A DNA stretch of 64,000 bases. Origin: Cloeon dipterum (lineage: Eukaryota > Arthropoda > Insecta > Ephemeroptera > Baetidae). The stretch spans positions 10,654,501 through 10,718,500 of the forward strand of contig NC_088787.1 of assembly GCF_949628265.1 (NCBI RefSeq), in the 5' to 3' direction. A model generated the notes under the pieces. The model ran no database searches, had not been told where the DNA came from, and saw only the letters and a program-made list of their open reading frames with translations. Position numbers and translations under genes: made by a program. Of the stretch, positions 32,389-62,533 are shown in pieces; the first letter of the stretch is position 1, and each line of letters starts with the position of its first letter.

Positions 32389-33932
32389 ATGTGGAGCAGA
32401 AAAATTAAACTCTTGGTAACCACTGGAACATTAATTATTTTATGTGGTATGGTAAGTAAGAAACACGCACGAAAAAGACAAATGAAAGTCTTAAATCTGC
32501 TTTTTAGTTGGTACAGTCGTCTCAAAGAGGACTACCAAAAAAGCCAATGAAAGATTTAAGAAATTCGCATCAAGCTTCAAGAACTCGTAATTTAAAGAAA
32601 TTAAATTGCTTTTTATTCACTCTGCCCGTTTTTCCAGCGGAGTTTAAACGCAGAAGAATTTACATTATCAAGTGCTGCGGGAAAAAAACGTGTTTACCCG
32701 CTCATCCAAAATTACGCGCAAGCATCATCAATTTTTTAATCTTTCTATCAATATATTTATTCTTACGCTCTCTCATCAGTCAAAAAATTTGGAAAACCAC
32801 ACAACCGTATCATCCACAGAAGTTAAAGAAACTTCCCAAGCGCCTAATCTAAAACAAACAACAGTTGACCTTCCAGAGCCTTCAATTCAAGCAACAGAGC
32901 AAACCACAGACCCTTATGACGCAAATAAATTAACGGACACTACAGCAAATCTGAATCCCACGGCAGGTAGAAGTGCAATGATTTATTTCGATGAATATAA
33001 ATTGAAATTTTGCATTTTATATTTTTTCAAAGCTCAAAACATATATGGCACCAACATAAATATTTTAATATTGTTATATCTGCACCAATTTCGAATATGA
33101 TCCTGCCATACTGCATGTTATAGAGTTTCTAGACGTGAAGTCAATTTATTTTTTATGTGCACTAAACTAACGACATTTATAAACAACGAATAAGTAAATT
33201 TGCCATCAAAGCAAAAAATATAATATTTCATTCGAGACTTCCGAAATTAGCTGGAATGATTTTTGTTCTCAACAAAAATCACATGGCACACTTTAGCAGC
33301 ATTGAACTCGAAATTGGTGCGGATAATTAAAATGTATTGGAATGCCTTCTGTTTGCAGCATCAAAATTGATTCCGAATCCAAATTTTCTAAATTGAAACG
33401 AATCATATTTCCAGATAAAACAGATTTTGTTAAGCCAATATCAAAAGAAATAAATCCGTCCACTACATCTGGTGATGATGTAACAGAAGAATCGACATCG
33501 GCACTTTCCAATTTACCGGAAACAACTTTTGCTGCAGAGACACTCTCAACAGAACAACAATCGTCGAGTACTTCAACTCCAGCAACAATACATCAAGAAA
33601 TTATTACAACACTCAAACCATCATCTGCAGCTACAACCACAGCAAAAATCACTACCAAAGCCTCGACTAAGGTATTAACAAATCGGCCGACGACCTTGAG
33701 AACATCATCAACCAAAACCACCACCACGTTTAGACCTCTTACCAAAGATGTGCGCAGCAATGCTAAATTTTCTTTCAGCTCTTGTATCAAATTTTTAAAT
33801 TAATTTTTTAGAGACTATACACATGCAGCTCTACCAAGTGCACAAAAAATGTAATTTAGCTTATTATCTTCGTAAATATGTTAATTTTTTTTTGTTTTTA
33901 GAATTCGTTGGCAAAAAGTGATCCAGCATTCG
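32389..33932 (+). CDS. Gene A exons 1-7: signal peptide, Cys motif, mucin-like region
   Basis: Exons are 32389-32451, 32508-32586, 32638-32717, 32780-32966, 33415-33749, 33812-33850 and 33902-33932. Exon 3 carries RRIYIIKCCGKKTCLP and ends at a GC donor (32718). Exons 4 and 5 are rich in Thr, Ser, Glu and Pro, as expected for an O-glycosylated spacer. Exon 6 (39 nt) encodes a peptide with two cysteines ending CTKN, and exon 7 encodes SDPAFG. Exons 6 and 7 begin the first CTLD block. Confidence 0.8.
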
Positions 33933-36900
33933 GTAAAATCTTATTATAAAACTTTCTCATCATATTTTAACAACGCACAATTCAAGTGTATCGCTCTACT
34001 TGGTACAGTGCATGCGGGAGTTCATTCATTTTCGGAACACAACTGGTAACATTTAGCCAGCTATCGATATACAGTATAAATTATTTTTTTTTAAATCAGG
34101 TTGATTGGGAGGAAAACTTCAAAATGTGTTGCAGTGTAGGAATGGTCCCAATTTCAATAGAAAATGAAGGAAAGCGCTCTTGTATGGCGTCACAAATGAA
34201 CCGTGAGAATATTTTAACTCTCTCTTTACTTTTAATTTCACTATATGATTAAATTTGTAGATAACTGGCCGTTCAGCATTTATTATTGGACATCTGGCAG
34301 AAAACTTTTCCACCCAAACTCGACTTTCGAATTTTGTCTTTCAAGGGGTAACATAGTAACAAACAAAACACCTAAAATGTGGGCTCCTGGCGAGCCTGTG
34401 GGAACGTGGGATAAACTGTGCCTTATGTTGGCGCTTGACAAGGATAAAACGAGTGCGTTGTTTTACGCCAGAAACTGTACAGAAAAATTCATCTTCGCTT
34501 GCCAGGTGGGATAGGAAATTGTTGAAAATATAAAGGATTTTTCTTTAATTAATGCATCAGGGACCGATGACCACCACTCCAGCACCGAATCCTCGCTACA
34601 ACAACTGTAAAAAGGTGTCGAATTGCACGAAAAATGTAATAAAATCTTAAGGTTAATTTTTAAATGGTATCTAATGCGGACTTAATTTTTTCCAGAGCGC
34701 CCTGTTCACAGAATTACCAAATAAGGGCGTTGAATTGACGAGTCTATTTCACCAAAATCAATCATAGTAATTTAATTATGTTTATTTTGTTTATTTTAGA
34801 TTTTGAGAAGTATGGAATGTGGTTGTTTCAATCTGGCAGAGCGTATTTGATCAGCCCATCTACTGCAACTGTACGAATTTATTTCTTATTTTGATTTAAT
34901 TCTAAGCCACCTCTCAATTAGTGGGCAGACGCTTCCGCTACTTGTTGCAGTATTGGAATGAAATTGCTCAGCATCGACTACACCTTCAAGTATGACAGCC
35001 TGACTACTATCTTGACAGGTAGATTATTATACATTTTGACAAGTTTAAAACAACACCAATTGCATGTAAATAGAAAATAAAAGTATTGCCGATACGTATT
35101 GGACATCTGGCGCGAGAATCGGGGACAAGAACATCTTTGGCTGGTGCGCGACCGACAAAAGGGTGAGAGATGCAAAGTGGGCACCAGGCCTGCCAGGAAG
35201 CGCGGACGACTGTGTGGCGGTTAATTTGATAGACAACAAGGTCCAGATTGCAGACAAGAACTGCCAAAATACCTACAAGTACATCTGCGAGGTAAAAAAA
35301 AAACAATAATTTCTTCCTATTCTGACATTCAGATTTAAAAACCGCGGTGCACTAATTGATGACAGTTTACAATGTTATGTAGTAAATGAACTTATTTATT
35401 TTTAAAATTTAAATAAAGGCTAGAGACACGAGAACGTCGGCAACAGCTGGTCGGGCAATATTAAACGAATGCGGCTTACTTTACAATGTTACTGAAGGTA
35501 TGTATCTCTTCAATTTTCTTTATTGCAAAATTCATAAATAATTCAAACAAAAATACCAATTTAGAACAAAGTGACTCTCTGTGGTCATCAAAAACATTCG
35601 ATCTGCGTCTAAAAGTATATTTAAATATTAGTCAAAATATTTTAACAAGCCTGTAACTGCAATAAATTATAGTGCTATGTAAAGTGCGTTGGCGAATTTG
35701 GCAACTATGTCAGCTATGTTTATTATCATAGAAAATTTTATGTAACATTTTGGTCTCGGTTTTAGATAGTGGATGGTCAAATAGTGACACAAGAATTGAT
35801 TAAATCGGCACAAGATCTTTCCCTCAGCTCCGACATGGACACGTACAACAAAAATGTTGCTGCTGCCTCAATTTGCGGAAATCAAGGTATGTAATATTAT
35901 TTTGTTTCGAAACACAGCACTTACATTTCCGAGGAATTTGTGTTTTCATCAGTCGGCATGGACGAGTGTGACACTGCATCGCTCGCGTTTTCCTGCGTCC
36001 AGGATGAGTCACCGGATATTGTGCAGCGCGCCATACTGAATGTAGAAACAAGCAATGCAGTGGTACGATTTGAAAAGTCTTATTTATTGCAAAGCCAGAC
36101 CAATTATTATTTATTTTAATGGCATTATGTGAGATGGAATGTGTTTCTGTGCTCTATTGGCAGTGCAGACTGTGTTATCGGGCGTAGTGAGCAACCCCAA
36201 GTTCCCCCTCCACTTTGGGGCTTCCTTGATCCTGCCAAATTTGCCCATTCGTGCCCCTAAAATCGTTGAAAAAGTTCAAATAAACTTCTTGCACGTTGCA
36301 TAGGTGTTATTGCACTTTAAATTAAACTTCCTGTGCGTAATAACGGATATCTTACTCATGCACGTTGAAGGTGAAATTAAAATTATATTCTTTGGTTAAA
36401 ATCATCAAAATCATCTCCAAATTATAATTCCTGGAACCCTGCAAACACGTTGTACCCCAGAGGTGCACCTCCTTGGATCCCGGTGCTTCCCTACCTAAAA
36501 TCCCGGTGAAAATTTTGACCCTAGTCTGGCAATGAAGTGCAGAAGGTGCTCCCTATATAGCTTCTGTTTTAAAAAATTTTATTGAATTCAATTCACAATC
36601 CTGCATACATTTTAATCATTTTTCCTCAAACAGCTGGTCCTGCTCGTGAACGAGCAATTTAAATTGTTCAAGAGAAGCACAAATGCTGTTTTTGCGGTGC
36701 TGAAAAGCGTTTCATATTAATGTTTCAGGAATTTGCAGCATTGCCATCAGCACAGGCCCTTTGCTACGATAGCTCATTGGGGAAATTTCAATTCAATGTG
36801 CGTAGAATTTCTTGAGTATTAAATCATTCTTACCGTAACAAGTTTAAGATTTTCAAACAATATAATATCAGCACTGCAATTATTTGTATTTGCTTTTTGT

Positions 36901-37559
36901 GTGTAGGTTAAATGTAGAATGGCCTACGTGAATGAAGATCGTAAGATAGATTAAAATTCACCAATGCTAATCGTAATCGGGCTTCGACCTATTATTGCAG
37001 CAAACCCATGCGGAAAAAGAGCATTTTACAATGTTTGTGGGGGACGTAACTACATATTGACTAACTTCTACCCCACGGTATAAGGCTTATTTCATGTGAC
37101 CAGGCGGTTTACAAAAAAAAATCTGGTTTTAATCCATTTCATAGAAAAACATTGATTATGCTTCTGGGGCGTGTGTGGAGTGGGGCCTGAAACTCGCATC
37201 GTTTGAAACATATGAAGAATTTATGTGTGTCGCTGAACTATTTGCAAGTAAGTCAAAATTAATTAATTATTATTTTAATTTTAAGAATACGATTTTGAGT
37301 GTCAAATCAAACTGTTTATGCGTGGACATCTGGTTCTTTCTGGATTGTGAGCGACAAGCCCGTCTGGTGTGGTTCAAATGCTCCTTTGGAGACGTCAAAA
37401 TATCCGTGGAACCTTAATGGAACTGGAGAGTTGGCGGGAACACCTTTCAGTACAGATTTCTTTGTCCAACTAGTAATCCCTGCGAATAATCCTAAAGCCT
37501 CGTTTTTAAAGACTGTTACTAACAGTCTACAGCCAGGTGGAAGTATCTGTGAGAACTAA
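32389..37559 (+). CDS. CTLD-CTLD-OBP-CTLD secreted protein, gene A (25 exons, 888 aa)
   Basis: Predicted secreted multidomain protein, role unknown. Residues 1-21 (from MWSRK) are a hydrophobic signal peptide, followed by the Cys motif (C60, C61, C66), a Thr/Ser-rich region at about 75-248, CTLD1 at about 272-407, CTLD2 at about 448-576, a classical OBP domain at 577-708 and CTLD3 at about 743-888. No transmembrane segment follows CTLD3, so it is probably released. The start is the only ATG of exon 1 and aligns with gene B. The spliced CDS is 2667 nt and stays open throughout. AATAAA lies at 37564. Intron 3 uses a GC donor. The closest relative here is gene B. CTLD and OBP assignments rest on motifs I can see; ligands are unknown. 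Confidence 0.85.
33987..34505 (+). CDS. Gene A CTLD1 (exons 8-10)
   Basis: Exons are 33987-34045, 34100-34202 and 34261-34505. Lectin-fold marks are FKMCCSVGMVPISIE in the helix-2/Cys region, YYWTSGRK, MWAPGEPVGTWDKLCLML and the closing Cys strand FIFACQ. The position of the calcium/sugar EPN triad reads EPV, so canonical mannose binding is doubtful. NST and NCT sequons are present. Confidence 0.85.
34561..35291 (+). CDS. Gene A linker and CTLD2 (exons 11-15)
   Basis: Exons are 34561-34635, 34696-34741, 34800-34870, 34922-35018 and 35074-35291. Exon 11 is a TTTPAPNPRY linker with two cysteines ending CTKN. CTLD2 shows SATCCSIGMKLLSID, YWTSGARIGDKN, GLPGSADDC and KYICE. Exon 12 ends ACG A at gtctat, one base beyond the place expected by eye, and this keeps the phase found in B, C and D. 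Confidence 0.85.
35419..36062 (+). CDS. Gene A OBP domain (exons 16-20)
   Basis: Exons are 35419-35497, 35565-35614, 35673-35708, 35766-35886 and 35953-36062. The six cysteines are C594, C620, C624, C668, C677 and C686, giving C-x25-C-x3-C-x43-C-x8-C-x8-C. This is the classical insect OBP (PBP/GOBP) signature, including the invariant x3 and x8 spacings. CYVKC and DECDTASLAFSC are the core motifs. The block starts and ends at phase-0 introns. The family usually binds small hydrophobic ligands in a helical pocket; the ligand here is unknown. Confidence 0.88.
36729..37559 (+). CDS. Gene A CTLD3 (exons 21-25)
   Basis: Exons are 36729-36797, 36907-36940, 37001-37077, 37145-37247 and 37300-37559. 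Marks are YNVCGGRNY, GLKLASFETYEEF, YAWTSGSFW, VWCGSN, KYPWN and the terminal GSICEN. It follows the three-exon intron pattern of CTLD1 and CTLD2 but lacks their CC pair and any EPN/QPD triad. The 666-nt intron before it is larger than in B and holds no coding that I recognise. Confidence 0.8.
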
Positions 37560-38196: not shown

Positions 38197-38201
38197 TTTT
38201 T

Positions 38202-38232
<31 letters not shown>
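38197..38232. repeat. Poly-T tract
   Basis: About 36 consecutive bases are T apart from one early A. It could be the poly-A tail of a reverse-strand retrocopy, but no retro-sequence is recognisable beside it. Confidence 0.8.
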
Positions 38233-39226: not shown

Positions 39227-41165
39227 ATGTGGGGCAGAAAAACGAAACTTTTGGTAACTTTTGTAACACTCATCATTTTATTTGGCGTGGTAAGTAATGA
39301 AAATATGAAAAAAGACAAAATAATTTTTTTATGTTTTTTAGTTGGTCCAGTCTTCTCAAAGAGGACTACCAAAAAAACCAATAAAAAATGCAAGAAATTC
39401 TCAACAAGCTGCAAGAACTCGTAACTCAAAGAAATTAAATAATTGCTTTCTTAATCTTTATACACGCGTCCTCTCTCCCGTTTTTCCAGAGAAGTTTAAA
39501 AACAGAAGAAATTACATTATCAAGTGCTGTGGGAAAAAAACGTGTTTACCGGCTCATCCAAAATTACGCGCAAGCATCATTGATTTTTTAATCTTTCTAT
39601 CAATATATTTATTCTTACGCTCTCTCATCAGTCAAAAAATTTGGAAAACCACACAACCGTATCATCCACAGAAGTCAAAGAAACTTCCCAATCGCCTAAT
39701 CTAAAACAAACAACAGTTGACCTTCCAGAGTCTTCAATTCAAGCAACCGAGCAAATCACAGACGCAAATAAATTAACGGAAACTACAGCATATCTTGATC
39801 CCACGGCAGGTAGAAATGCAATGGTTTTTTCCTCTTGAATAAAATAAAAAAAAATCAATTTTTATTTTACCCCGTTTTCAAATGTCAAAACGGATATGGC
39901 ACCACCATAATATATATTATTATTTCTGCGCCTATTTCGAATCTGAGCCTGTCATACTACTGCATGTTCTAGAGTTTCTAGACTCTAGACGTGAAGTTAA
40001 TTCTTTTTTTATAAGCACGAAATGACCGACATTTAAAGAACGGAATAGGGAATTTTCATCAAACCAAATCAGTAGAACCAATAGATGGAACGATTTTTTT
40101 CCCCAGCACATCAATAGGAAATATTTCGCGTCTGACGACATCGGAGCGGATATAGGCAATTTAAAATATTTTGGAATGCCTTCTGTTTACAGCTTCAAAA
40201 TTCATTCCACGTCCTAAATTTCTAAATTAAAATGTATCATATTTCCAGATAAAACAGATGTTGTCCCACTGGTTTCACACGAAACAGATCCATCCACAAC
40301 ATCTAGTAATGTTGTAACAGAAGAATCGACATCAGCCCTTTCCAGTTTACTGGAAACAACTCTTGCCGCAGAGACGTTATCAACAGGACAGCAATCCGCA
40401 ATGACTACAGCCAATTATCAGCAAATATCAGCCACACAAGATTTAGCAAATCTCACTACATCTTTCAAAATTTCAAGCCCCGCGTCGAGTGCTTCAACTC
40501 CAGCAACAGTAACTCAAAAAATTACTACAACACTCAAACCATCATCAATCACTACTAAACCATCATCGATCGGAGTATCAACAGTTCCAACCACAACAAA
40601 AATCACTACCAAAGCCTCGACTGTAGTGGTAGCGTCGACTAAGATATCTACAAGCAGCTCAGCCAAAATTACATCAACTACAACAGCAAAACCAATAATT
40701 ACAACAGCAAAACCAACTACAACAGCAATATCAACTACAACAGCAAAGCAAATTACAACCGCAAATCCAACTACAACAGCAAAACCAACAACAACAGCAA
40801 AACCAACTACAACGGCCAATCCAACTACAACAGCAAAACCAACTACAACAACAAAACCAACTACAACAACAAAACCAACTACAACAACAAAACCAACTAC
40901 AACCCTTAGAGCATTAACAAATCGGCCAACTACCTTGAGAACATCTTCAACCACAACCACTACCACGTTTAGACCTCTTACCAAAGAGGTGCAGCATGCT
41001 AAATTTCCAATTTGCTCTTTATAAAATTAATTTTTTAGAGACTATACACATGCGGTTCTGCCCAGTGCACAAAAAATGTAATTATAGCTTATCTTCGTAA
41101 ATATTTTTTAAGTCTTTTTTTGTTTTTCATCCAGGACACGTTGGCAAAAAGTGATCCAGCATTTG
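39227..41165 (+). CDS. Gene B exons 1-7: signal peptide, Cys motif, Thr-rich mucin region
   Basis: Exons are 39227-39289, 39342-39420, 39490-39569, 39632-39809, 40249-40988, 41039-41077 and 41135-41165. Exon 3 (KCCGKKTCLP) ends at a GC donor, as in gene A. Exon 5 is 740 nt against 335 in A, because of added TTT-AKP/TKP/ANP units. Exons 6 and 7 encode the two-Cys CTKN peptide and SDPAFG. Confidence 0.82.
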
Positions 41166-44100
41166 GTAAAACCCTTATCCTTATATATTTTTACATTTTT
41201 CTTCATATTGTAACAACGCATAATTCTAGTGTATCGCTCTACTTGGTACACTGCTTGCGGGAAATCATTCATTTTCGGAACAAAACTCGTACAATTGTGC
41301 TAGCTATCGCTATACTCATAATTATTATTTTTTTAATTCAGGTTAATTGGGAGGAAAACTTTAAAATGTGTTGCAGCGTAGGAATGATCCCAATTTCAAT
41401 TGAGAGTGAAGCAAAGCGCTCATGTTTAGCGTCTCTTATGAATTGTGAGTTCCTTTCTATTCTCTTTCTTTGCGCAGTATCATTATCATCGAGTTTCCAG
41501 CAAAGTGGCCTTTTAGTATTTATTATTGGACATCTGGCAGAAAACTTTTCCATCCAAACTCGACTTTCGAGTTTTGCCTTTCTAGCGGTAACATTGTGAC
41601 AAACACAACAGCTAAAATTTGGGCACCTGGTGAGCCTGTAGCAATGTGGGATAGGCTGTGCCTTATGTTGGCGCTTGACAAGGACAAGAGAAATGCGTTG
41701 ATGTATGCTAGAAATTGCACGGAACAATACATCTTCGCTTGCCAGGTAGACAACTCTCAAACCAAACTCACTATTTGATGTTTTTAAATTACGCTGTAGG
41801 GCCCGGTGACCACAACTCCAGCTCCCAATCCACGATACAAAAACTGCGAAAAGGTTTCAAGGTGCACGAAAGATGTAAACTATATCTTGTATCGATATAA
41901 GCTTTGGAGTTAGAGTCATACTTTCAGAGCACCCTGTTTAGAGAACTGGTCAATAAGGCTGTAGTATTGAATGGTCTGATAAGCCAGTAAATTAAATTAT
42001 TAAAAATAATAAATAATTCTTAATTGTAGATCATCAGAAATATGGAACCTGGTTATATCAGTCTGGCAGAGCGTATTTAATCAGCCCTTCTGCTGCCAAT
42101 GTATGATTTTTTTCTTCCACTAAAATCATGGATTTCAAGCTTTTGGATTCAGTGGACAGATGCTTCAGCTGCGTGTTGCAAAATCGGATTAAAATTGCTC
42201 AGCATCGACTACAACTTTAAATACGACAGCCTGATATCTCTCTTGCAAAGTAAAATTGAATTTTAACGAGCGGAGGAGCCAGGTAATCCAATCGTCTCAA
42301 TAGAAGATAAAAACATCGCCGATACGTATTGGACATCTGGCGCGAGGATCGGTGATAACAAAGTTTTCGGTTGGTGCTCGAGTGACAGGACAGTGAGAAA
42401 TGCGAAATGGGCACCAGGCCTGCCAGGAAACGCAGACGACTGTGTGGTGGTTAACTTGATGGACAACAAGGTCCAGATTGCAGACAAGGACTGCAAAAAT
42501 ACTTACAAGTATATTTGCGAGGTAATTAAATTAATTAAAATTGCTTCGTTTTTCTCTTCCCGTGGATAATTCTGAGAATAGAATATATTCAAATCCATTA
42601 AATTGAAGATGTAGCAATTTTTAACTACATATCAGCTAATAATTTTATGCAGTTTAAATTTTGGATTTTAAAAATGTACCTTTTAAATTATTTTTTATTG
42701 TATTATAAAATCAGGCGAGAGATACGAGGACATCAACATCACCTGGACGTGCGATATTAATCGAATGTGGCCTTCTATACAATATAACTGAAGGTTAAAT
42801 TAAATTTAAAAAAAAATTTAAAAAAACTGCAATTCAATAAATAAATTAACAATTTTTAGATCAAGTCGATTCGCTGTGGTCTTCTAGCGCATTTGACTTG
42901 CGTCTAAAGGTATCTAATTTTTTTAATTGAAATTGAAAACATTTATTTATCTTCTGAAATCTCAAAAGTGCTTTGTCAAGTGTGTTGGCGAGTTCGGGAA
43001 TCTGGTCAGATTTTTTAATTGTACATTTAATGCACTATATTTTTCCGCCAACTAGATAATTGATGGTCGGGTTGTGACGCAAGAAATGATTAAGTTGGCC
43101 CAAGAACTGTCTCTCGGCGCTGATATGAACACGTACACCCAAAACGTTGCTATTGCCTCTGTTTGTGGAAATCAAGGTATTGTTTTGATGATTTCCTGCC
43201 AAACACAGCGCTTACCAGGAATTTGTTTGCGTCACGCGATTTCATCAGTCGGCATGGACGAGTGTGACACTGCGTCATTAGCGTTCTCCTGCGTCCAGGA
43301 GCAGTCCCCGGATATTGTCCAGCGCGCCATGCTGAACCAAGAAAATAGCGGCTCAATAGTGCGACGCAATTATTATCATACATATAAGAGTGCTTCATAA
43401 TTAATTTAATTTGTTATTTTTAATGAAAATATACAATATAACCAAAAGAAAATCAATAGGACCACAGAATAAATCAGCTCTTTTGAATAGGAATAATTAA
43501 TTTTACATGCAAATGGCAAAATATTGCGAGACGAGTGTCTTTTAGACATTTGCCAAAATGACGAACTTCCAGGATATGAATTAAAATATCTAAAAAGGAG
43601 CGATAAAAATATTAAATCATAGAAAAATGATTAATTCTCTTCAAGGAAAAATAGATCAATGTACATTTTACAGTTTAAAATAACATTTTCAGGACTTTGC
43701 TGCGTTACCATCAGCACAGTCTCTTTGTCGGGATCTCTCATCTGTGGCCTCTAATTTGAACGTATGTATTTTAAATTGAAATTGGCATTTGCTTACTTTA
43801 ATTTTATGCACATATTTTGAAACGGTACCCGTTTATCTGACATTACACTAATTTCATTACTTGACATGTGGCACTGTAAAGATCGAGTGCAGGAAAGCCT
43901 ATGTGAATCAAGATCGTAAGAAGCGTGATCTGCTGTTGGCGTATTTAATTACAAAAATTTCCTTCCAACATTCCAGCAAATCCATGTGGGAGAAGAGCGT
44001 ATTACAACGTTTGCGGAGGTCGGAATTACGTTTTGGTTGATAACCCTTGGACGGTGAATGAAATTCAATAAGGACAAGGTAATTTAATTATCATAAATAC

Positions 44101-49305: not shown

Positions 49306-51504
49306 ATGACGACGTGCGGCAAAATTAAATTAATATTTCTTGCTTTCGCGATCTTGGTGATCGTTTTCGGAGAGTGCGGTAAAGTAAGTGCTTTTGCACC
49401 TTGCTTTTCTTTCATCTAATAACGAAATGACTGCGTATTTTTTATTACAAGATAAGTGGCCGCTCTGACATTCGGGATGCAAAGAGATCCAACATCAATG
49501 TTGTTAAATTAAATCAAATAGCAAAATCTCGTAAGTGGGATATTTTAATTACTTGTTTCTACTGCCCCAATTCAATTTTGTAGAAAAGGCAAAAAATGTT
49601 AGGCGGATCCATATTATTAAGTGCTGTGGAGGGAAATCCTGCATTCCAAAAAAATTAATTTCTCATGTGAGAACCATTTTGTTCAATTTTAGTTAACTCT
49701 TTTTATCTGAACACTTGAAACTCAGTCAAAAATTGTTGATAACCGCACGACTCCAGCGAACAAGCCTCCAGAAATTAGAGCGACGACGCTAATACCTAGC
49801 CGCGAACAATCCGTTGCAGAACCTTTTACTGAACCTTTGAAAGTGAATGTGGAAACCACAGAATCCCAAGGAACGAAAGATAAAACTGACTCTATACCAG
49901 GTATAAGCATTTGATCATGACACTAAAACTATAGGCGCGAACAAGTCGTTGCAGTACATTTTACTGAACCTTTGAAAGTGAATGTGGAAACCACAGAATC
50001 CCAAGGAACAAAAGATAAAACCGAATCTGTACCAGGTAAGCATATGATCATGACGCTAATAACTACAGCCGCAAACAATGCGTTGCAGAACATTCTACGG
50101 TATCTTTAAAAGTGGAAACCACAGAATCCCAAGGAACAAAAGATAATACCGTATCTACAGTATCTACATCAGGCAAGCATTTGATCATAAAGAAAAAATG
50201 CCCTTTTTTTCAGCGTCATTTTAATTTAAACAATAAACTACAGAAACAACGCTGACCACAACCTCTTACACTACGAAGGCCCCTATTTACTTAACAAACA
50301 GGCCAACAGTCATCAAAACATCTACAATTCGTACTACAACCATATCTGTACCGCTGACAGCTGAAGTGCGAAAATTCCTTATTTTCGCTTATTGTATTTA
50401 TACATATATACATAATTTGTTGCAGAGATTGTATTCTTGCAGTTCCATTCCATGCGACAAAAATTCATTTTACGTAATTTTCCTCGTCTTAATAGGGCTG
50501 TGAGATTTACTCGATTATTTTGGAATCGACAAACCTTTTTAGAATGTTTTTGGTGAAAAGAGTCAGTTTTGCGCTTCGTTTAAAACGCAATAATTCACAC
50601 TGTCTTTAAATGGCACTTAATTTTAATTTTTGCGGGGATAATATGGTATTATATTTACACCAGTCTAATTTTGCAGATTAAAATAGCTTAATATACATCA
50701 TTTGGAATTATAAAAAATGAAGTCATAAAGTTAGAAACAAATATAAAATTTTATCAATATTCACCACAAATGGTGAATTTTATGTTTTTTAAATTTCAAT
50801 TTTAACAAGAATGGCTTTTGTCCTGTTTAGCCATAGAAGAAAAGTTCTAATTTTTCTCAAAATGCAAAAAATAACTCTCCTAATTGAAACAAATACTGCA
50901 TTTAAATGATTTAAATTAATTTTGTAAATTGTGTTTCGGTAACGTTTCAAACCTCTGTATTTTATAAAAATTGATGCATTGCTTACACGAAATCACAAAC
51001 TTAATTTACTACCAAGTATAACGTGTATCATAATTATTATCTCGAATTAATTCAAAACTACAAAACGCATTAAAATTTGTTACATAATATCCCCCAAATA
51101 TAAAAAGGCTAAATAATATACCATTAAAAAATCAGCAAATACACGGAGCTACATTTGAAAAGGTTTTGGACTAAAATGTAATGAAAGAATGTGTCCAGGA
51201 TGTAATATTTTACATGAAAATTTAAATATAAATGAAGATAAATTAATGAAATTTTTCCAAAAACGATTGAAAAAAAGATTTGTACTTTTACCAACGGATT
51301 TTTGGCCGACATGCAGTTTAAGACCATTTTAGATAATATTATAATGATGGTTTATTGATTTGAATCTGATTATTTGATTGGATCGTAGCCCAGAAATACA
51401 ATTTATCGTCTAAATTTCACAGCCCAAATTAATTTAAATTGCACTTTCAATGAGTACAAATTTATCCACTTAGAAACATTTGGAGGCAAGTGATCCAGCA
51501 ATTG
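49306..51504 (+). CDS. Gene C exons 1-7: signal peptide, Cys motif, Thr-rich region
   Basis: Exons are 49306-49383, 49452-49530, 49584-49666, 49726-49900, 50244-50365, 50426-50473 and 51474-51504. Exon 3 encodes RRIHIIKCCGGKSCIP and ends at an ordinary GT donor, unlike A and B. Exon 6 is 48 nt, nine longer than elsewhere, because its donor lies further downstream. Exon 7 encodes SDPAIG after a 1 kb AT-rich intron. Confidence 0.78.
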
Positions 51505-54500
51505 GTAAAAGAAGCATTTATTTGTAACTTTACATAATTTATTTCACGAGCAACTCAAATTATCTAGAATATCGCGCTACTTGGTTCAGCGCCTGCGGCA
51601 ACTCTTTTATATTTGGAACGCAATTAGTACATTATTCTTGTCGACAGAATTATTATTTTACGCAGGATTACATTTCATTAGCTTACGTGGGAGGAAAACA
51701 TCAATAAGTGTTGCAGTATTGGCATGATTCCGATATCAATAGAAAATGAAGAAAAACGTTCTTGTATGGCGTCCCTCATGAAGTGTGAGTCCTAATTTAT
51801 TGTTCGTCTAAAGATAAATGTCGTTGATTATTGGATTTTAGCCGACTGGCCTTTTAGCATGTATTATTGGACGTCCGGCAGAAAACTGTTTCACCTCAAC
51901 TCGAGTTTCGAATTTTGTCACTCTGGTGCTCAAATTGTGACGAGAGCGACAGCTAAAATTTGGGCTTATTTGGAGCCTTCGCGATTATGGGATAAATTGT
52001 GCATTCTCGTATCGTTTGAAAAAGACCAAGCACGAGCGCAATTGTTTGCAAAAAACTGTTCTGAAAAACATATTTTTGCCTGCCAGGTACGCAACTTATA
52101 CACGCGGTTATATTGTCTTTATTTTTAAATATGAAAATTTTAGGGCCCGTTGACCACTACTCAGCCACCTAATCTGCGTTACAGCAATTGTCAAAAGATA
52201 TCAAAATGTGCGAAAAATGTGAGACTTTACACTGCATATAAAATATATGTATTTTGACTTGGAAAACTATACAATAATCTTCAGGACGCGTTATTCACTT
52301 CATTGCCAAATGGAGGCGTTTTGTTGAAAGGTTTAAAATGTTTTATATACAACCAATAGTAAATAACCAAGTTTGGAAAATTAATCAGATTACATGAGCT
52401 ATGGATCGTGGTTAACATTGTCAGGCAGAGTTTACTTGATCAGCCCATCAACAGCGACTGTAAATTATTAGCTTCGAATTGGCATTTTACAAAAGTTCTT
52501 AGTGTTCAAAGTCGCGAATAAATGGCACCAGCTGTTACCTACTTTTTTTAAGGCACTACTTATTCCGCTGCGATTGAAGGCTCAATCCTTCTGCTGGGCA
52601 TTCTGCACCTAAAATTGTATCTTTTATGAATCTAAAATTGGTTCAGTCAACCACCGTAGAGCCGACGAAAACAATTTTTCAATCTTTCCTACGGTGAATG
52701 GTTGGACTGAGTTTTGTTTTCAACTCATCAAAAGAAATAATTTGAAGTGAAGATTGCACAACATAAGGATTGTGTTTTAAATTGCAGCAGACGCGCCTCA
52801 AAATAAAACGTAACCGCTGGCGCCATCCATCTAAGGGTTTAATCATATTGTGAGTGTATGCATTTTTATATAGTGGAAGGATGCTGCGGCTGCGTGCTGC
52901 AGTATTGGACTAAAACTGCTTAGCATTGACTACACCTTTAAGTACGACAGTCTTGCCACTTTCTTGCAACGTAATGAAATTTTAACTTTCACTGATAAAT
53001 ACATTATTTCATCGACTAGAAAATAAAATTAAAAACGACATTTACTGGACTTCTGGGGCAAGAATTGGGGACAACAATATTTTCGGATGGTGCGCGACCA
53101 AAAAAAGGGTCAGAGATGCCAAGTGGACGCCGGGTCTTCCAGGCAGCGCTGATGACTGCGTGGCAGTTAGCTTGATGAACAATAAGGTCCAGATTGAAGA
53201 CAAGAGTTGCGAAAGTAGTTACAACTATATTTGCGAGGTAAAATTCAAACTTGGTCTTTAAAATTAATATTGTTGCTGTTGTTTTCACACAACTTGACAA
53301 TTTAATACTTTATTTCACTGCATCTTTTTGAAAAATTCCATTGTTCATTTTAGGACGAGATTTAATGAATATTCACAGTTAATTTGATTGCAAAGTTTGA
53401 AATACCTTCCCTGGTGCGGTGAAATTTCAGTTTCGGAAAAAGGTCTTGCGGCTTGTGCTATTCCATGTTATTCTGTTTGAGAATGTCATGGCTCATTACC
53501 AATTATTGCTTTAGCATAAATGCCATTTCTCAATCAGAGAACCAGCATTAAAAAATTGAAAAATGAAAAACGCAAAATTATCTGTCTAACAAATATGCCC
53601 TCTGCCATCTCTGACAATCGTGGGTAGGCAGAAACGCCGATTATTGTTAAGAAATAATAAAAATTTCGCTAGTTGTTGATCCTAACCAATAACGATCTGT
53701 AACTAATAATGCTTTTTGTCATTAATATAATAAGGGAAGAGATATGAGTACGTCATCAACTGCTGGCCGCGCAATTTTGAACGAATGTGGTTTACTTTAC
53801 AATATAACCCAAGGTATACTTAAAACACTTAAGAATCGTGTAATCGCTGAAATACAATCCAATTAAATATTCATCAATTAGAACAAGTTGATTCCCTTTG
53901 GGCCACAAAAGAATATGATATACGTCTAAAGGTATAGATGATATATTATCAAATAATGTAAAAAAAACTAATGACATTTTTGCTAGTGTTATATGCAGTG
54001 TGTTGGTGAATTCGGCAACATGGTTTTATTTATCAAATCCAAAATTGCACATAAATGAAATTAAATAAAATGTTTCTTTAGATGGTTAACGGTCAAATAT
54101 TAACACAGAATATGATGAACATGGCTCAAGAAATGTTTTGGGAAAAAAATTCAGACACGTCCAGCAAAAACACCGCTACTGCTATCAAATGCGGAAATCA
54201 AGGTATGAATCTCGTTCTTTCCTTTGCACTTTCACGCTGTGCCAATAATTAAATTTACGTCTACTTCATCAGCCGGCATGGATGAGTGCGACACCGCATC
54301 TGTCACTTTCTCTTGCATCCAGGATGAGTCACCGGATATGATTAAACTTGCTTTGTTGGAAGTAGAAAGAAGCCAGTCGGTGGTATAGCACAATAGGGTT
54401 CAAAAGGACAAAGTCAATCTCAAATTTAAAAATACGATAGCAAAAAGAGCGAGTTGCAATGAATTATTTATTTAAAACGCAAAAAATCATCAAGCAATTT

Positions 54501-54579
54501 ATAGATTTATTTAGAAATCTTGCACGATTTTCTTTTGGCCCTGATGGTTTTTTTATTATCTAGAAACACACACACACAA

Positions 54580-54640
<61 letters not shown>

Positions 54641-56191
54641 TGCGCTATAATCGATACGTGATATTTTGCAGTTTTTGTATGGCTCGTAATAAAAATACTA
54701 TAAATGTTCTATATAATCAGGCCTCAATAAATCAGAGCATTTAAGATCTGTTCGCATATAATTCCGATCTTAATTTACATCGTTGATAATTGTATTTGAT
54801 TGATATTTATTTCGCAATACCATTAATAACATAATTAATCCAGCAGCTAGTTTGCATTTATTAAACACATTGACTCGCCCCATTTTTATTTTCTGTTTCT
54901 TTTCGACTTAACATAAGAAATTAAATTTAAATGCTATTTGATTTCATATTCCCAGGAATATGCTGCTTTGCCATCAGCACAGGCTCTTTGCTCAACAGCG
55001 CTATCGACAGACAAAGTAGTTGTGCGTATTATTCGTATATTATTAAAATATTTATCGAAGCAGGCAAAATAGAAGTTCGTCTTGTTTTCTCTTGAAAAGC
55101 TCTACATATTGAAAACTCTCCTTCTATTTTTATTTATTTTTCCTTTGAGCATTAATAATAATTAACTATTTCTACATGTGTGCTGCTGTTAAGGAGTCAT
55201 ATAGGAATCGATATTTGAATGAGGACCGTAATATATGCATGACTTTTCCCGATAATTTAATTAGTTTCCATGCATAATAGCAACCCCGGCTGGACCTGTA
55301 TTATCATATTACAACGTTTGCGGAGGGCGAAACTACCTGTTCGATAACAACACTGTGTTTAAGGATTCGGTGAGCATAGAGGATATAGCACCCGATCATT
55401 GGGATCTTTTACTAAAATTTTATTGAGAGATGCTGTAAATAAGGGATGGTATGTTAGGCGTTCCAAAAATCCCATAGTGATAAACTGATTAATATAAACT
55501 TTTTGGTTAATCCAGGAATTAGAAAAAAAGCAAAAAACTATTAATTTTTTATTTCTCCAATGCAAGATTGTGCTGACATGATTTATCTGCCTTTAATTAC
55601 AATTTGTCTCTTATTCCCCCATCCTAATAAAATACATAATACACTCATTAAATTGAGCCACATATGTATTTATAGCTTATTTAAAATATAAATGCATTTT
55701 GTAATAATTAACAGTTTTTATATACCGATTAGAATAAACATTAATGTAATTCTTAGGCTTCAATCGATCGTGCACTGCAATTTTGTGTTCGTTTGGGTTT
55801 GAAACCCGCATCTTTCGAAACATTCGAAGAATTCAAATGTGTCACAGACCTGATAGCAAGTGAGTAAAACTTAATTTAATTCTATTATTATACTCTCTAC
55901 ATTCTTTGGTATTGATATGATTCAACAGACTCACAACCAACTCAAAAGTTAAGTCTTTGGACATCTGGATCTTTTTTGAACGTGCCCGAGAACCCTGTCT
56001 GGTGCAGTTCAAACACTCCTATGGACCCGTCTAAGTACCCTTGGAACCTCGATAGCACCGGAATGCTGCAGGGAACAGACTTCACAAAGAATTATTATGT
56101 TCAAGTGATCATCACTCCCAATGGCTCGTTTTTGAAAACCGTTCCAAATAACGTTAGTAGCACCTTTGGATCATTGTGTGAAGATTATTGA
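49306..56191 (+). CDS. CTLD-CTLD-OBP-CTLD secreted protein, gene C (25 exons, 826 aa)
   Basis: Shortest of the four proteins, because its Thr-rich region is small. It has a signal peptide (1-26, from MTTCGK), the Cys motif (C66, C67, C72), a Thr/Pro-rich region at about 81-179, CTLD1 at about 206-341, CTLD2 at about 382-510, an OBP domain at 511-642 and CTLD3 at about 676-826. The spliced CDS of 2481 nt has no internal stop. The gene is spread over 6.9 kb because introns 4, 7, 13, 15, 20 and 23 are enlarged, and intron 13 holds a foldback element. Introns 4-5 contain two ghost exons. It pairs with gene D. Confidence 0.85.
49935..50172 (+). pseudogene. Two ghost copies of exon 4 in gene C
   Basis: Segments 49935-50035 and 50069-50172 repeat most of exon 4, including GTGGAAACCACAGAATCCCA. 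Each begins at a fortuitous AG. When joined to exon 4 in phase 1, both read into an early stop, and the second ends at a GC rather than a GT. They are best read as tandem exon duplications now skipped. Confidence 0.65.
51568..52086 (+). CDS. Gene C CTLD1 (exons 8-10)
   Basis: Exons are 51568-51626, 51682-51784 and 51842-52086. Marks are NKCCSIGMIPISIE, MYYWTSGRKLF, EPSRLWDKLC and HIFACQ. The A/B motif APGEPV is replaced by YLEPSR. Confidence 0.85.
52144..53237 (+). CDS. Gene C linker and CTLD2 (exons 11-15)
   Basis: Exons are 52144-52218, 52285-52330, 52389-52459, 52874-52970 and 53020-53237. Marks are AACCSIGLKLLSID, IYWTSGARIGDNN, GLPGSADDC and NYICE. Intron 13 (52460-52873) is filled by a foldback insertion. 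Confidence 0.83.
52494..52840. mobile_element. Foldback element copy 3, in intron 13 of gene C
   Basis: It resembles the elements at 1048-1448 and 21092-21491: TTCTTAGTGTTCAAAG at one end and GGCGCCATCC...CTAAGGGTTT at the other, with inverted arms between. It is more diverged and slightly shorter. It sits wholly between a donor and an acceptor, so coding is intact. Confidence 0.7.
53735..54382 (+). CDS. Gene C OBP domain (exons 16-20)
   Basis: Exons are 53735-53813, 53882-53931, 53987-54022, 54082-54202 and 54273-54382. Cysteines are 528, 554, 558, 602, 611 and 620, with the same spacing as the other copies. Motifs are CYMQC and DECDTASVTFSC. Confidence 0.88.
54564..54638. repeat. (CA)n/(TA)n microsatellite in gene C intron 20
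   Basis: Runs of CA, then TA, then about 18 further CA dinucleotides. Intronic. Confidence 0.95.
54956..56191 (+). CDS. Gene C CTLD3 (exons 21-25)
   Basis: Exons are 54956-55021, 55194-55227, 55281-55369, 55757-55859 and 55929-56191. Marks are YNVCGGRNYLF, GLKPASFETFEEF, LWTSGSFL, VWCSSN, KYPWN and GSLCED. AATAAA is at 56450. Confidence 0.8.
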
Positions 56192-57409: not shown

Positions 57410-57541
57410 CAGAACGACGTTTTTTACCAGGAATGCACGCGTGTATCCAATTAAATTTTACTAGGTGTTTCACTTCCTGTCCTGCTGATAGCAAAAAATT
57501 CCGAAACTCGAGTCAACTAAACACAATATTTTTCGTTAACG
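57410..57541 (+). promoter_or_regulatory. Conserved 5' block upstream of gene D
   Basis: Matches the gene C block: TACCAGGAATG, TATCCAATTAAATTTTA, TTTCACTTCCTGTCCTG and GAGTCAACTAAACAC, ending at the ATG. Confidence 0.5.
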
Positions 57542-58684
57542 ATGATGAGGGGTGGCAAAGTGAAATTATTTCTTGCTATTGCTATCTCAGTCTCTGTATA
57601 TAGAGAAGTAAGTGCTCAAAACCTGATAATTTTCTCTACTTTATACTTCTCAAATCCTTATAGATAACAGGGAGCTCTAAAATTGGGAAAGCTGAAAGAT
57701 CAATCAAAGCTGTTGTTAAATTCAACCAAAACACAAAATTTCGTAAGTTAAGGTTCTTCAATTATTTCCCTCAAATTCCTTAAATTAATTTTGCAGAAAT
57801 AACAAAAAATGCCAGAAGAATCCACATCATCAAGTGCTGTGGAGGGCAATCCTGCATTCCGAAAAAATTAATTTTGCGAGTGAGGAGCGTGTTTTACAAT
57901 TTTGATATAACCCCTAACCTGAATTTTCAAAACACAGTCGAAAATTTCTACTAACCGCACGACTCCAGTAGCTAGCGTAGTAACGACGTTAATGCCTAGC
58001 CGCGAACAAACCACGGTTCAAGAACATCCTAATCCTACGGAACCTATGATGCAAGTGAAAGTTGACACCACAGAATCCCAGGGGAAGACAGAAAATACCG
58101 GATCTATGCCAGGTAAACATATAATCGTAAGAAAAAAAGCATTCTTAAAAATAAATCTTAACAGAAACATCAGAAGCTAAAACGAGTGGTGCACCATTAT
58201 CTTCTATTAGTCCCATTCAACCCCAAGAAACAACATCAACTGAATCAACATTGACCTCATCGGCATTAACCTCATTGAAAACTACCGTGGCAACCACCCT
58301 GATATTTTTAACAATTAATAGGCCAATAGGTCAACCCCAAGAAACAACAGCAACTGAATCAACATTGACCTCATCTTTATTTCCCTCATTGAAGACTACC
58401 GTATCAACTACCCTGATATTTTTAACAAATAGGCCTACGGTCATCAAAACATCTACAACCACAACCCCAACGACATTTGTACCTCTTACAGATAAAGTGC
58501 AAAAATACAGCTTCTGTGTTGCTTGTATTCATGCCAAATTTAATTGCAGAGACTTTATTCTTGCAGTTCCAACCCGTGCGAGAAAAATGTATTCTATATA
58601 TAATATATAATTTGTAATTGTAACTATGCAAATTTATAATTTTTAATGTTTAGCAACTTTTGGAGGCAAGCGATCCTGCGATTG
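57542..58684 (+). CDS. Gene D exons 1-7: signal peptide, Cys motif, Thr/Ser-rich region
   Basis: Exons are 57542-57607, 57664-57742, 57797-57879, 57938-58112, 58165-58496, 58550-58588 and 58654-58684. Exon 3 encodes RRIHIIKCCGGQSCIP with a GT donor. Exon 5 contains a direct repeat of about 38 codons (QPQETT...TESTLTSS twice). Confidence 0.8.
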
Positions 58685-61600
58685 GTATTAATATTATGGA
58701 TTTAATTTAGATATTTTCGAATGTTGTACAATTCTAGACAATCGCGCAGCTTGGTACAGCGCCTGCGGCAACTCGTTCATTTTTGGAACGCAACTGGTAA
58801 ATTCTTACTCTGGTTGTAAATAAATCTATATTACACTTCTACTAGGCTACGTGGGAGGAAAACTTCAATAAGTGTTGCAGCATTGGCATGATTCCGATAT
58901 CAATAGAAAATGAGGCAAAACGCTCTTGTATGGCGTCTCTCATGAACTGTGAGTTCCCAATTTTTTTTTGTCTCGCGCGCCTTAAGATAAATGTCGCTGT
59001 TTATGGGATTTTAGCCGACTGGCCTTTTAGCATTTATTATTGGACGTCCGGCAGAAAACTGTTCCACCTAAACTCGAGTTTCGAATTTTGTCACTCTGGT
59101 GCTCAAATTGTGACAAATACTACGGCTAAAATTTGGGCTCGTAAGCAACCTGTGGGAGAATGGGATAAATTGTGCCTTCTCTTGGCGTTTGAAAAAAGCA
59201 AAGCGAGCGCGCTGTTGTACGCCAAAAATTGTGAGGAAAAACACATCTTCGCTTGCCAGGTTCGAGGGCAGGAATATTTTGATTGGACTTAATTTTTTTT
59301 TAAATTTGACAATTTAGAGACCACTTACCACAACTCCAGCACCAAATATACGCTACAGCAACTGTCCAAAGATTACAAACTGCACAAAAAATGTACAGAT
59401 TTATTAACGAAAATTTTTCTTCGCAAAAATTATTTTTTTCAGGCCGCACTATTCACATCATTGCCAAATGGAGGCATTTTGTTGAAAGGTCAGTATTTTA
59501 TATTGAGTATATAAACATCATTTGTTAGCAATAAGAAAATAAATCAGATTACCCGAGCTATGGAACTTGGATAACCCTGTCTGGCAGAGTCTACTTGATC
59601 AGTCCATCCACTGCAACAGTATTATAATTTCTAGCTTTATTTGCATTTACTTTCAAACCTTTTTTAAATAGTGGATGGATGCCGCGAATGCGTGCTGCAG
59701 CATAGGACTTAAACTGCTCAGCTTTGACTACGCTTTTAAGTATGACAGCCTCACCGCTCTCTTGCAACGTATTTAATTTAATTTAGCTTATGCGAAAGTA
59801 AATTTGTTAATTTATACGGGCAGAAATGAAAATTACAAATGACATATACTGGACATCTGGAGCGAGGATAGGAGACAACAATATTTTCGGATGGTGCGCG
59901 TCTAAAAAACGGATGAGAAATGCAAAGTGGGCTCCGGGCCTGCCAGGGAGCGCAGATGACTGTGTGGCGGTCGACTTGATGGACAACAAGGTGGTCCAGA
60001 TTGCAGAAAACAGTTGTCAAAATGCATACAAGTACATCTGCGAGGTATAATTTTACATTTAACAATTCAAAACTATATAGTCGCTTTCCGCTGTCCCAAA
60101 ATTTGTATTCAAAACACCATTTTTTAGCATGTGAAACAATCTAATGGAGTTGATTATTCACTTATTTTATGCATATCTGTTAAAATAGACTGCAGACGAT
60201 CACAATTATTGCTTTACGAGAGATTAACACTTTTAGGGGAGAGATGTGAGTACATCATCAACGGTTGGTCGCGCAATATTGAACGAATGTGGTTTGCTTT
60301 ACAACATAACTCAAGGTAATAGTATAGTTGTATTCGAGAATTCAGAAATATGACAACTAAATTTACCAACGAAAAGAACAAGCGGAATCCCTTTGGTCTA
60401 CGAAAGCATTTGATCTATCTCTCAAGGTACCAAGAGAAAAAATAATTTAAAATATAAATCAATCTCATATTTCTATTGTCTGTCAGTGCTATATGAAGTG
60501 TGTAGGCGAATTCGGCAACTTGGTCAGTTAAATAATTAAAAATTGTGACTGAATGCTCTATAAAACAGAGTCACTAGATGGTGGACGGTCAAATAGTGAC
60601 GCAAACAATGATGAATTTGGCACAAGAAATGTATTCTGAAAGAAACTCAGTCACATCCAGCAAAGATACCGCTGCTGCTATATATTGCGGTAATCAAGGT
60701 ATTTGTATTGTGCTTTCCATTCCACTAGAACACAGAGATAAATTTTGTGTCTCTCTCGATTTTACCAGTCGGCATGGATGAGTGCGACACAGCGTCTCTC
60801 ACATACTCCTGCATCCAAGATGAGTCACCAGATATGATCAAACTCTCCTTATTGAAAGTAGAAAGAAGCAATTCGCTGGTATGGCTTTAGGCACAAGAGA
60901 TTTTTCTGATTTAATATCAATTCACTTTTTTTCTCGAAAACTCGTAAACACAGCTTTTAGATACTATATACGGAATTTTCAGTCACAAAAAAGGACCAAT
61001 CCAATATTAATTTCGCTTCTCCAAAAGAGCAACAATGATATGATAAAATACCTTAATCGTTACTCCACAGGAATTTGCTGCTTTACCATCAGCACAGGCG
61101 CTATGCTACGCAGGTCCACTAACTTCAACCACAGTCGTTGTGAGTAAATTACACAACTATTTCAAATCAATGACAATATTTTTTTTATGCTGTTCTTGTT
61201 TGCTCATTCATATTTATACTCTTTAAGCGTAATTACTAATATTTAATATTTTTTGTTTCATGTGGTGCTGTAAAGGAACTATATAGGACAGACTATTTAA
61301 ATGAAAATCGTACTATGACCTATCCCATGAAAATTTTAAAATAATTTTTACATAATAATAGCAAACTTCATTGGTTCGCGAACTGTACCGTATTACAATG
61401 TTTGCGGAGGGCGCAATTATGTGATGTATAATGATTCTACAATGGGTTCCGGGGTGAGGAATAAATGCATGTGTATAATAATATAAAGTGATACATGCTT
61501 TACTGATTTAATTGTTCGAGTGGTGAATATTGGATTTTGACGGTGATATGGCTGTTAAACTGACTGACTATGTGTGCATGTGTCTGATCAAACTGGAGTA

Positions 61601-62533
61601 ATACAAATAGCTATTAGGGCAACAATTCTAATAACAATTATAAAAAATTTAAACTATTTTGGGTGTGTGAGAAATTGTCAGAATCTGAATGTATGAGTTG
61701 AAAATGAGCAAAATTGATATAAAAGGGACAGTGGCGAAATACAAATTTCAAAATATGTGCTTTTTTAATTTTACCTATGATGTATTCCTTTTTAAGTGAT
61801 AAATTTGGTGCATATATTGGAACGGGACAGCAACAAGTAGTGAAATTAAGATCATAAAAATAAAGCAACACCCACTACTCAAATTTCTATCTACAAATAA
61901 AATTACCGATACCACCTTTTTGTTAGGGGTAAATTTTGGCTTCGGCCCTATCCTTAAGCATCTTAGCTTATTATGCCCTTTGTGGCGAGAATTTTCAATG
62001 GGTTTTCAGTGTAGTTTCCCTTTAAAATTTTAGTAGAGATAATTTGCTAATTTTGTGCTTTTATACTGTTCAAAGATTTTAATATTATAATGTTATTTCT
62101 AGACCACGATCAACAATATAATCACACAGTGTTACATCCTTGGTCTGAAACTCGTGTCATTTGAGACATATGAAGAATTCAAGTGCGTTACGGAATTAAT
62201 TGCGAGTGAGTTAAAAATTAAATACAATAATATAGCCATGAGTTTCTTTGGTTTTAATTTGGTTCAACAGGACCAACTCAGAATTTTTCTCTTTGGACAT
62301 CTGGATCCTTCATGAATATGCCAGATAAACCTGTCTGGTGCAGTTCCAATGCTCCTATGGACCCATCGAAGTATCCTTGGAACCTTGATAGCACCGGAAC
62401 GCTGCAAGGCACAGATTTTTCTAAGAATCATTACGTTCACGTGGTCATCACTGCCAAAAGCTCATTTTTGAAAACTATTCCTGACGGCTTTGTTAACTCT
62501 GTTGGATCTTTGTGTGAAGATAACATCTTATAA
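57542..62533 (+). CDS. CTLD-CTLD-OBP-CTLD secreted protein, gene D (25 exons, 892 aa)
   Basis: Compact sister of gene C. It has a signal peptide (1-22; two adjacent ATGs at 57542 and 57545, the second giving the length used by A and B), the Cys motif (C62, C63, C68), a Thr/Ser-rich region at about 77-245, CTLD1 at about 269-404, CTLD2 at about 445-574, an OBP domain at 575-706 and CTLD3 at about 741-892. The spliced CDS of 2679 nt is open. Exon 15 is one codon longer than in the other copies (a doubled Val). AATAAA is at 62609. It is expected to be secreted; ligand and tissue are unknown. Confidence 0.86.
58738..59259 (+). CDS. Gene D CTLD1 (exons 8-10)
   Basis: Exons are 58738-58796, 58846-58948 and 59015-59259. 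Marks are NKCCSIGMIPISIE, YYWTSGRKLF, KQPVGEWDKLCLLL and HIFACQ. Confidence 0.85.
59318..60044 (+). CDS. Gene D linker and CTLD2 (exons 11-15)
   Basis: Exons are 59318-59392, 59443-59488, 59548-59618, 59672-59768 and 59824-60044. Marks are NACCSIGLKLLSFD, IYWTSGARIGDNN, GLPGSADDC and KYICE. Confidence 0.85.
60237..60878 (+). CDS. Gene D OBP domain (exons 16-20)
   Basis: Exons are 60237-60315, 60377-60426, 60487-60522, 60578-60698 and 60769-60878. Cysteines are 592, 618, 622, 666, 675 and 684, with the same spacing as the other copies. Motifs are CYMKC and DECDTASLTYSC. Confidence 0.88.
61071..62533 (+). CDS. Gene D CTLD3 (exons 21-25)
   Basis: Exons are 61071-61139, 61276-61309, 61362-61453, 62103-62205 and 62271-62533. 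Marks are YNVCGGRNYVM, GLKLVSFETYEEF, LWTSGSFM, VWCSSN, KYPWN and GSLCED. Intron 23 is about 650 nt and AT-rich. Confidence 0.8.

Follow-up and report, generated by a model that had tools for sequence, protein, structure and literature searches.

The baetid mayfly Cloeon dipterum encodes a family of proteins in which C-type-lectin-like domains (CTLDs) and a classical six-cysteine odorant-binding protein (OBP) domain are joined in a single chain. That the two are fused is practically certain, and it is very highly probable that the fusions form a large, genome-wide family. An initial annotation of one tandem array had described CTLDs and an OBP in one chain with a mucin-like stalk, and this was borne out both by open spliced models of its four genes (A–D) and by joins of the two domains inside one exon at 104 loci.

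The window (the whole stretch of DNA analysed, 64,000 nucleotides; C2:10654501-10718500) belongs to an assembly of 190.1 Mb in 10 contigs, in which the large contigs C1–C5 are 33–43 Mb each. C. dipterum has five chromosome pairs. Self-comparison of the window revealed four tandem copies at 32–62.6 kb. The features of the array, in window coordinates, are as follows (OBP cysteines are written Cys1–Cys6).

32389..37559, + strand: gene A, 25 exons, 888 aa; hydrophobic N-terminus, IIKCCG, stalk, CTLD1, CTLD2, OBP and CTLD3 in that order; spliced model
32780..33749, + strand: gene A, Ser/Thr/Pro-rich (mucin-like) stalk, exons 4–5; 43% S+T+P
33812..34505, + strand: gene A, CTLD1 unit, exons 6–10; internal phases 0,1,0,1
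34561..35291, + strand: gene A, CTLD2 unit, exons 11–15; internal phases 0,1,0,1; Pfam PF00059 and PDB matches
35419..36062, + strand: gene A, OBP cassette, exons 16–20, residues 577–708; cysteine spacing 25-3-43-8-8; PF01395 E 3.8e-7
36729..37559, + strand: gene A, linker and CTLD3 unit, exons 21–25; internal phases 0,1,0,1
39227..44510, + strand: gene B, 25 exons, 1015 aa; spliced model, Pfam scan
42715..43358, + strand: gene B, OBP cassette; PF01395 E 8.6e-6
49306..56191, + strand: gene C, 27 exons, 881 aa; one stalk exon in three versions; spliced model
53735..54382, + strand: gene C, OBP cassette; PF01395 E 1.2e-7
57542..62533, + strand: gene D, 25 exons, 892 aa; spliced model
60237..60878, + strand: gene D, OBP cassette; PF01395 E 5.7e-7
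66326-71648: gene E, fifth complete copy, just past the window end

Gene A was built by eye; for B–E, a splice-aware search was constrained to the phases of A or D, and the stalk exons were corrected by reading. Genes A–D are open from ATG to stop with no internal stops; their acceptors are all AG, and their donors GT, save for a single GC donor in each of A, B and C. Intron phases are identical across A, B and D, and C has the same set plus two additional phase-1 introns. Since the search imposed the A or D phases, this agreement means that open, splice-consistent solutions exist and is not an independent count. The start, end, 25 exons and OBP position (residues 577–708) initially given for gene A all match the rebuilt model. 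The initial annotation had listed four complete 25-exon genes with the same phases; all four are complete, but the exon number and the phases hold for A, B and D and not for C, and the phases of B–D were imposed in the search. The 304 kb examined around the array, reaching from 110 kb before the window to 130 kb past its end, yielded nothing more than copy E and a minus-strand scrap of CTLD3.

The chains of A–E share one order: a hydrophobic N-terminus, the IIKCCG motif, the stalk, two CTLDs, the six-cysteine OBP, a linker and a last CTLD. The N-termini were judged hydrophobic by eye (weakly so in D), and on this reading A–E appear to be secreted. No transmembrane-like stretch was detected in A–E, with no 19-residue window beyond residue 40 scoring above 1.33 on the Kyte-Doolittle scale. 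The stalks hold 42–51% S+T+P, are mucin-like by composition and may be O-glycosylated, and an N-x-T sequon near Cys1 of the OBP is invariant in the array (N23, T25). In gene A, each of the three CTLD units consists of five exons with phases 0,1,0,1 inside, and all unit boundaries are phase 0, both sides of the OBP cassette included, which lets one regard the OBP as a symmetrical 0-0 cassette set between units 2 and 3. The CTLDs and OBP of A–E are under purifying selection, with dN/dS values (Nei-Gojobori, A–E, ten pairs) of 0.10–0.39 for the CTLDs and 0.05–0.32 for the OBP; the corresponding values are 0.23–0.42 for the linker (one pair saturated) and 0.51–0.70 for the stalk. With OBP dN/dS in that range, the anatomy of A–D is far beyond chance.

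The window models rest on inferred splicing, and they could in principle be an artefact in which adjacent lectin and OBP genes were joined by mistake. The intron between CTLD2 and the OBP is 127 bases long in gene A, and in none of the five CTLD2-OBP introns of A–E is there an ATG that stays open to the OBP acceptor. Short ATG frames (at least 15 aa, stopping before the acceptor) do occur in the introns of B, C and E; TATA-like words stand in those of B, D and E, and AATAAA- or ATTAAA-like words in all but that of D. Given these, a hidden extra first exon might conceivably exist there. The genome was also searched with a joint query of 92 residues that runs from the end of the CTLD into the OBP as far as Cys1 (150 of 405 candidates scored, at least 150 matches). 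Of the 150 joint matches listed, 104 run through Cys1 without a stop (43 on C1, 39 on C4, 10 on C5, seven on C3 and five on C2), and the end of the CTLD and the start of the OBP thus lie inside one stop-free exon, where no splicing inference is needed. Mistaken joining was rejected on the intron ATG result together with these one-exon loci and has a negligible probability; the initial annotation had likewise argued against a gene-model artefact.

The OBP module was identified both by profile and by structure-database searches. PF01395 matches all 11 OBP regions scanned at E ≤ 0.01 (A–E and six paralogues described below, L028 not being included). Scanned as a domain, the gene A OBP scores 30.6 bits against a PF01395 cut-off of 22; in longer Pfam scans (A at full length, B–D from CTLD1 on), PF01395 is above cut-off in B, C and D, and A is not listed. 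At E ≤ 0.01, an 11-row OBP profile has matches to 16 distinct sequences of the PDB, every one of them of OBP or pheromone-binding class, counting the AGAP- and AAEL-named entries as OBPs. The top PDB match of the gene A OBP alone is an Anopheles protein (E 0.0014). A five-row profile made weak contact with a long D7 chain (E 0.23), and at the loose limit of E ≤ 1 its sole match outside the OBP class, among 12, was vinculin (0.7). All six cysteines are kept in the 12 aligned members (A–E and seven paralogues), with a spacing of 25-3-43-8-8 in A–E and 25-3-41/42-8-8 in six paralogues; the seventh, L028, has 33 in place of 41–43, within a doubtful exon, and L031 has one extra cysteine between Cys5 and Cys6. 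Another helical domain mimicking an OBP was rejected on the Pfam (11/11) and PDB (16/16) results.

The three CTLDs differ in how readily they are recognised. CTLD2 is above the PF00059 cut-off in all four window genes, and its profile matches LY75 and mannose receptor chains best in the PDB (E down to 4.6e-11), with mosGCTL-1 at 9.4e-7. The CTLD1 profile is weak against the PDB (0.025) and aligns to CTLD2 by hhalign at 9.4e-11. CTLD3 of A–E is degenerate, with no Pfam CTLD match and a PDB value of 0.36; by hhalign it aligns to CTLD2 (90.9%, 1.2e-6), but to CTLD1 at only 18%. A CTLD3 profile of 12 members, with the seven paralogues added, matches CTLD proteins of the PDB with E down to 3e-5, and only two of the 12 CTLD3 sequences match PF00059, even at E ≤ 1 (best 0.011). 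The Pfam check proposed at the outset, with PF00059 and PF01395, was thus positive for CTLD2 and for the OBP regions but not for CTLD3 of A–E. The sugar-binding motifs EPN, QPD and WND are absent from all five array proteins, and the CTLDs of A–E are more likely to be protein-binding or scaffold modules than calcium-dependent sugar binders, judging from their sequences. Glycan binding by the window genes, as first suggested, is not supported. Among the paralogues, CTLD2 carries EPN in L026 and L029 and QPD in L028; WND occurs in none of the 12 members.

When the same genome was searched at the protein level, 68 of 541 candidates were scored and gave at least 90 matches; seven paralogous loci were fetched from among these, on the four other large contigs: two each on C1, C3 and C5, and one on C4. 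Their models used the exons of gene D from CTLD1 on as template, which imposed the phases. Each of the seven has an open solution running CTLD1-CTLD2-OBP-linker-CTLD3 to a stop, with one doubtful exon in L028; this locus, possibly a broken copy, lacks a frame-keeping acceptor for the exon that follows Cys3 of its OBP. The best-scoring version has the last CTLD2 exon continuous with the first OBP exon in L026, L028 and L029 and keeps the two apart in the remaining four; L032 has two CTLD2 exons merged as one. In the 12-row alignment of A–E and the paralogues, 86 columns are invariant, and cysteine accounts for 25 of these. In a tree of the 12 genes, the window array forms one clade (100/100) on a long branch. 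A recent, one-off fusion confined to the window array was rejected, as there are paralogues on C1, C3, C4 and C5.

A PF01395 profile search of the genome returned one exon, because the profile was applied exon by exon, and is uninformative on family number. A motif just after Cys6 of the OBP gave 77 matches at no more than one mismatch, compared with three for the reversed-pattern control, and for 74 of the 77 a same-strand CTLD exon lies no more than 3 kb upstream; two of those 74 (C1:17069338 and C5:27974862) lie beyond a nearer OBP and share the CTLD of that OBP. When OBP C-terminal exons among the matches listed were paired loosely, 81 of 89 had a CTLD within 3 kb (median 522 bases), and the controls gave a single hit, at −50 kb, with none on the opposite strand, at +50 kb or at +200 kb. 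A strict one-to-one recount, which added one row left out by the first criterion, found 80 of 90 listed OBP exons with a CTLD of their own upstream on the same strand (median 520, maximum 1543 bases). Two of the remaining ten (L038 and L039) were fetched, and both have a CTLD directly upstream and are thus fused; two more (C5:27974825 and C1:17069224) are possible remnants, each sitting on the 3′ side of a complete gene.

Together, these searches give at least 137 CTLD-OBP loci, i.e., 104 of the one-exon type and 33 of the split-exon type (31 together with L038 and L039). These are loci rather than proven intact genes, openness having been checked in 12 (A–E and the seven paralogues, L028 being doubtful), and since all family queries came from fused OBPs the searches are biased towards fusions, so that 137 is not a fraction of all OBPs. 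The four genes of the array, to which the family was at first confined, are real but understate it, with copy E and these loci to be added. The family probably includes much of the OBP repertoire of this insect. One gene on C1 was read upstream to its start by eye: it has a hydrophobic N-terminus, IIKCCG, a Gly/Ser/Thr-rich stalk and four CTLDs, with the OBP placed between the third and the fourth, and L034–L036 look similar over the parts fetched.

In the one-exon type, about 15–20 residues separate the last CTLD cysteine from Cys1 of the OBP. This bears on the idea that the chains are precursors, cut by proteases in their linkers to free ordinary OBPs and lectins. OBPs elsewhere work as free small proteins, and the family has linkers between its domains, but the short stretch in the one-exon type speaks against such processing, which we regard as very doubtful.

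One apparently stand-alone OBP was seen, on contig C3, in searches biased towards fusions. No CTLD occurs within the 3.2 kb fetched around it, in which its first exon was not identified. Read by eye, its introns are in phase 0 directly before Cys2 and in phase 1 between Cys4 and Cys5. The fusion cassette has both of these intron positions and one more after Cys3, suggesting that a true OBP gene was the source of the cassette. A phase-0/phase-0 OBP exon cassette from such a gene would have entered a multi-CTLD gene, and the fusion would then have spread through tandem duplication. The L001 type has no close relative, and its two further matches have E values of 1.1 and 2.5.

The best explanation of the data as a whole, and one that we consider fairly probable, is a large secreted CTLD-OBP-CTLD family of cassette origin whose members act as matrix-anchored carriers. 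The OBP domain would hold small hydrophobic ligands, and the CTLDs and O-glycosylatable stalk would retain the protein in a gel outside the cell, be it mucus, glycocalyx or the surface of a sensillum or gill, so making carriers that might resist wash-out in water. Taken by itself, the matrix-anchored ligand-carrier role is a sequence-based proposal that we hold with slightly less than even confidence; since A–E lack EPN, QPD and WND, their CTLDs more likely anchor the chain in a matrix or bind proteins than bind sugars with calcium. The proteins might instead form structures or barriers, in gill mucus, the peritrophic matrix, an egg coat or an adhesive, with the OBP as a ligand-free disulfide module, as the mucin-like stalk (42–51% S+T+P) and the A–E CTLDs without sugar motifs would allow. 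This is quite improbable in view of the six OBP cysteines kept in 12/12 members and the purifying selection in A–E, although a purely structural part is still compatible with both.

In a different role, in immunity or scavenging, microbes or debris would be bound by the CTLDs, lipidic or aromatic molecules would be sequestered by the OBP, and chemosensation would have no part. Tandem arrays with many diverging copies, the multi-CTLD layout, and EPN or QPD in CTLD2 of L026, L028 and L029 are consistent with it, but EPN and QPD are missing in A–E, and the C. dipterum OBP expression described in the main text of PMC7250882 (nymphal head and gill) suits a sensory or surface role at least equally. 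We consider an immune or scavenger role unlikely. According to the same main text, 82 of 167 OBPs are expressed in gills, three were shown in gill cell clusters, and the OBP-expressing clusters are HRP-positive (PMC7250882). A bolder reading, which we put forward tentatively, is that the record-size 'OBP' repertoire of mayflies could consist mostly of lectin-OBP chimeras. In such a mode of aquatic chemoreception, the odorant carriers would be multi-lectin mucins anchored in the matrix of gill and head surfaces rather than free proteins of the sensillar lymph.

No CTLD-OBP fusion was described in the titles and abstract openings of the open-licence papers searched, in line with the initial annotation, which knew of no described family with an OBP between lectin domains. 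OBPs and CTLDs are known kinds of domain; what is new, relative to those papers, is their union in one chain, at 137 or more loci. Insect OBPs are regarded as free small carriers, and a count of at least 137 CTLD-OBP loci against one apparently stand-alone OBP, in fusion-biased searches, would overturn that view for this insect, and possibly for the lineage to which it belongs. If the chimera reading is true, mayfly OBP counts and gill 'olfaction' would need to be re-read, and surface-anchored carriers offer a concrete hypothesis for how an aquatic insect could keep ligand carriers at a wet chemosensory surface.

One of the known systems close to the family is the published OBP set of C. dipterum itself, for which the main text of PMC7250882 gives 191 OBP genes in a 180 Mb assembly, the largest repertoire then described. 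Both sets are extremely large; the word 'lectin' does not occur in that main text, and the genes are treated there as OBPs (PMC7250882). With the mannose receptor and DEC-205/LY75, the best matches of CTLD2, A–E share several CTLDs in a row; they differ in having an OBP between the CTLDs and, by Kyte-Doolittle windows, in having no transmembrane-like stretch, where the mannose receptor family has a transmembrane segment and a cytoplasmic tail. Secreted insect C-type lectins are represented by mosGCTL-1, which CTLD2 of the fusion matches; the solved mosGCTL chains are 151–198 residues long, the size of one CTLD, and A–E are without sugar-binding motifs. With classical insect OBPs (PBP/GOBP, PF01395) the fusion has in common the six-cysteine spacing, the Pfam and PDB matches and two intron positions, but a classical OBP is a free small protein, and the fusion OBP is an internal module of an 881–1015 aa chain (A–E) without a start of its own; in A–E and the one-exon loci, the OBP does not show the family trait of being a small protein secreted by itself behind a signal peptide. 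In the D7 and double-domain OBPs of flies and mosquitoes, OBP is joined to OBP. These resemble the fusion family in placing an OBP fold within a larger secreted protein, and differ in that the partners of the OBP in C. dipterum are lectin-type domains and a mucin-like stalk.

A single-copy OBP gene (by search) that is apparently stand-alone lies on contig C3, and two of its intron positions are common to the fusion cassette, the OBP exons between CTLD2 and CTLD3. Further clusters of CTLD exons on contigs C2 and C3 are candidates for the parental multi-CTLD genes, and some of the four possibly lack an OBP.

C3:3623995-3627165, minus strand: apparently stand-alone OBP gene (L001)
C3:2.37-2.44 Mb: CTLD exon cluster
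C3:1.40-1.48 Mb: CTLD exon cluster
C2:8.30-8.33 Mb: CTLD exon cluster
C2:0.94-0.99 Mb: CTLD exon cluster

Two OBP-motif matches on contig C1, each with one mismatch, were without a counted CTLD joint, i.e., a CTLD end plus the OBP start through its first cysteine. That at C1:21698922 (plus strand) may be due to chance. Near the motif match at C1:41344210 (plus strand) there is a CTLD match ending before cysteine C1.

The fusion family has probably also left damaged copies. The CTLD3 scrap past gene E is a remnant of another copy, and the degenerate stretches 3′ of complete genes are probably remnants of further ones. The paralogue L028 may be a broken family member; its OBP exon after cysteine C3 has no frame-keeping acceptor (reverse complement, ~2890-3010).

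~72491-72622 (window coordinates; L002), minus strand: CTLD3 exon scrap in reverse orientation, shortly beyond gene E
L027, ~3950-4920, reverse complement: degenerate stretches resembling CTLD and OBP sequence, 3′ to a complete gene
C1:17069224-17069400: degenerate CTLD-/OBP-like stretch 3′ of a complete gene

The window itself carries several repeats and mobile-element-like sequences. Copies of the dispersed repeat are about 81-88% identical.

27567-28182: tandem repeat, 91-base period
4212-4498, 14397-14664, 26654-26944 and 29803-30107, both orientations: dispersed ~280-base repeat
1032-1463 and 21090-21493: pair of related stretches of ~400 bases, each an inverted repeat of itself
11130-11627, plus strand: open frame, read by eye

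The inverted-repeat pair are possibly foldback-type elements, and the open frame resembles, by eye, the final part of a non-LTR reverse transcriptase.
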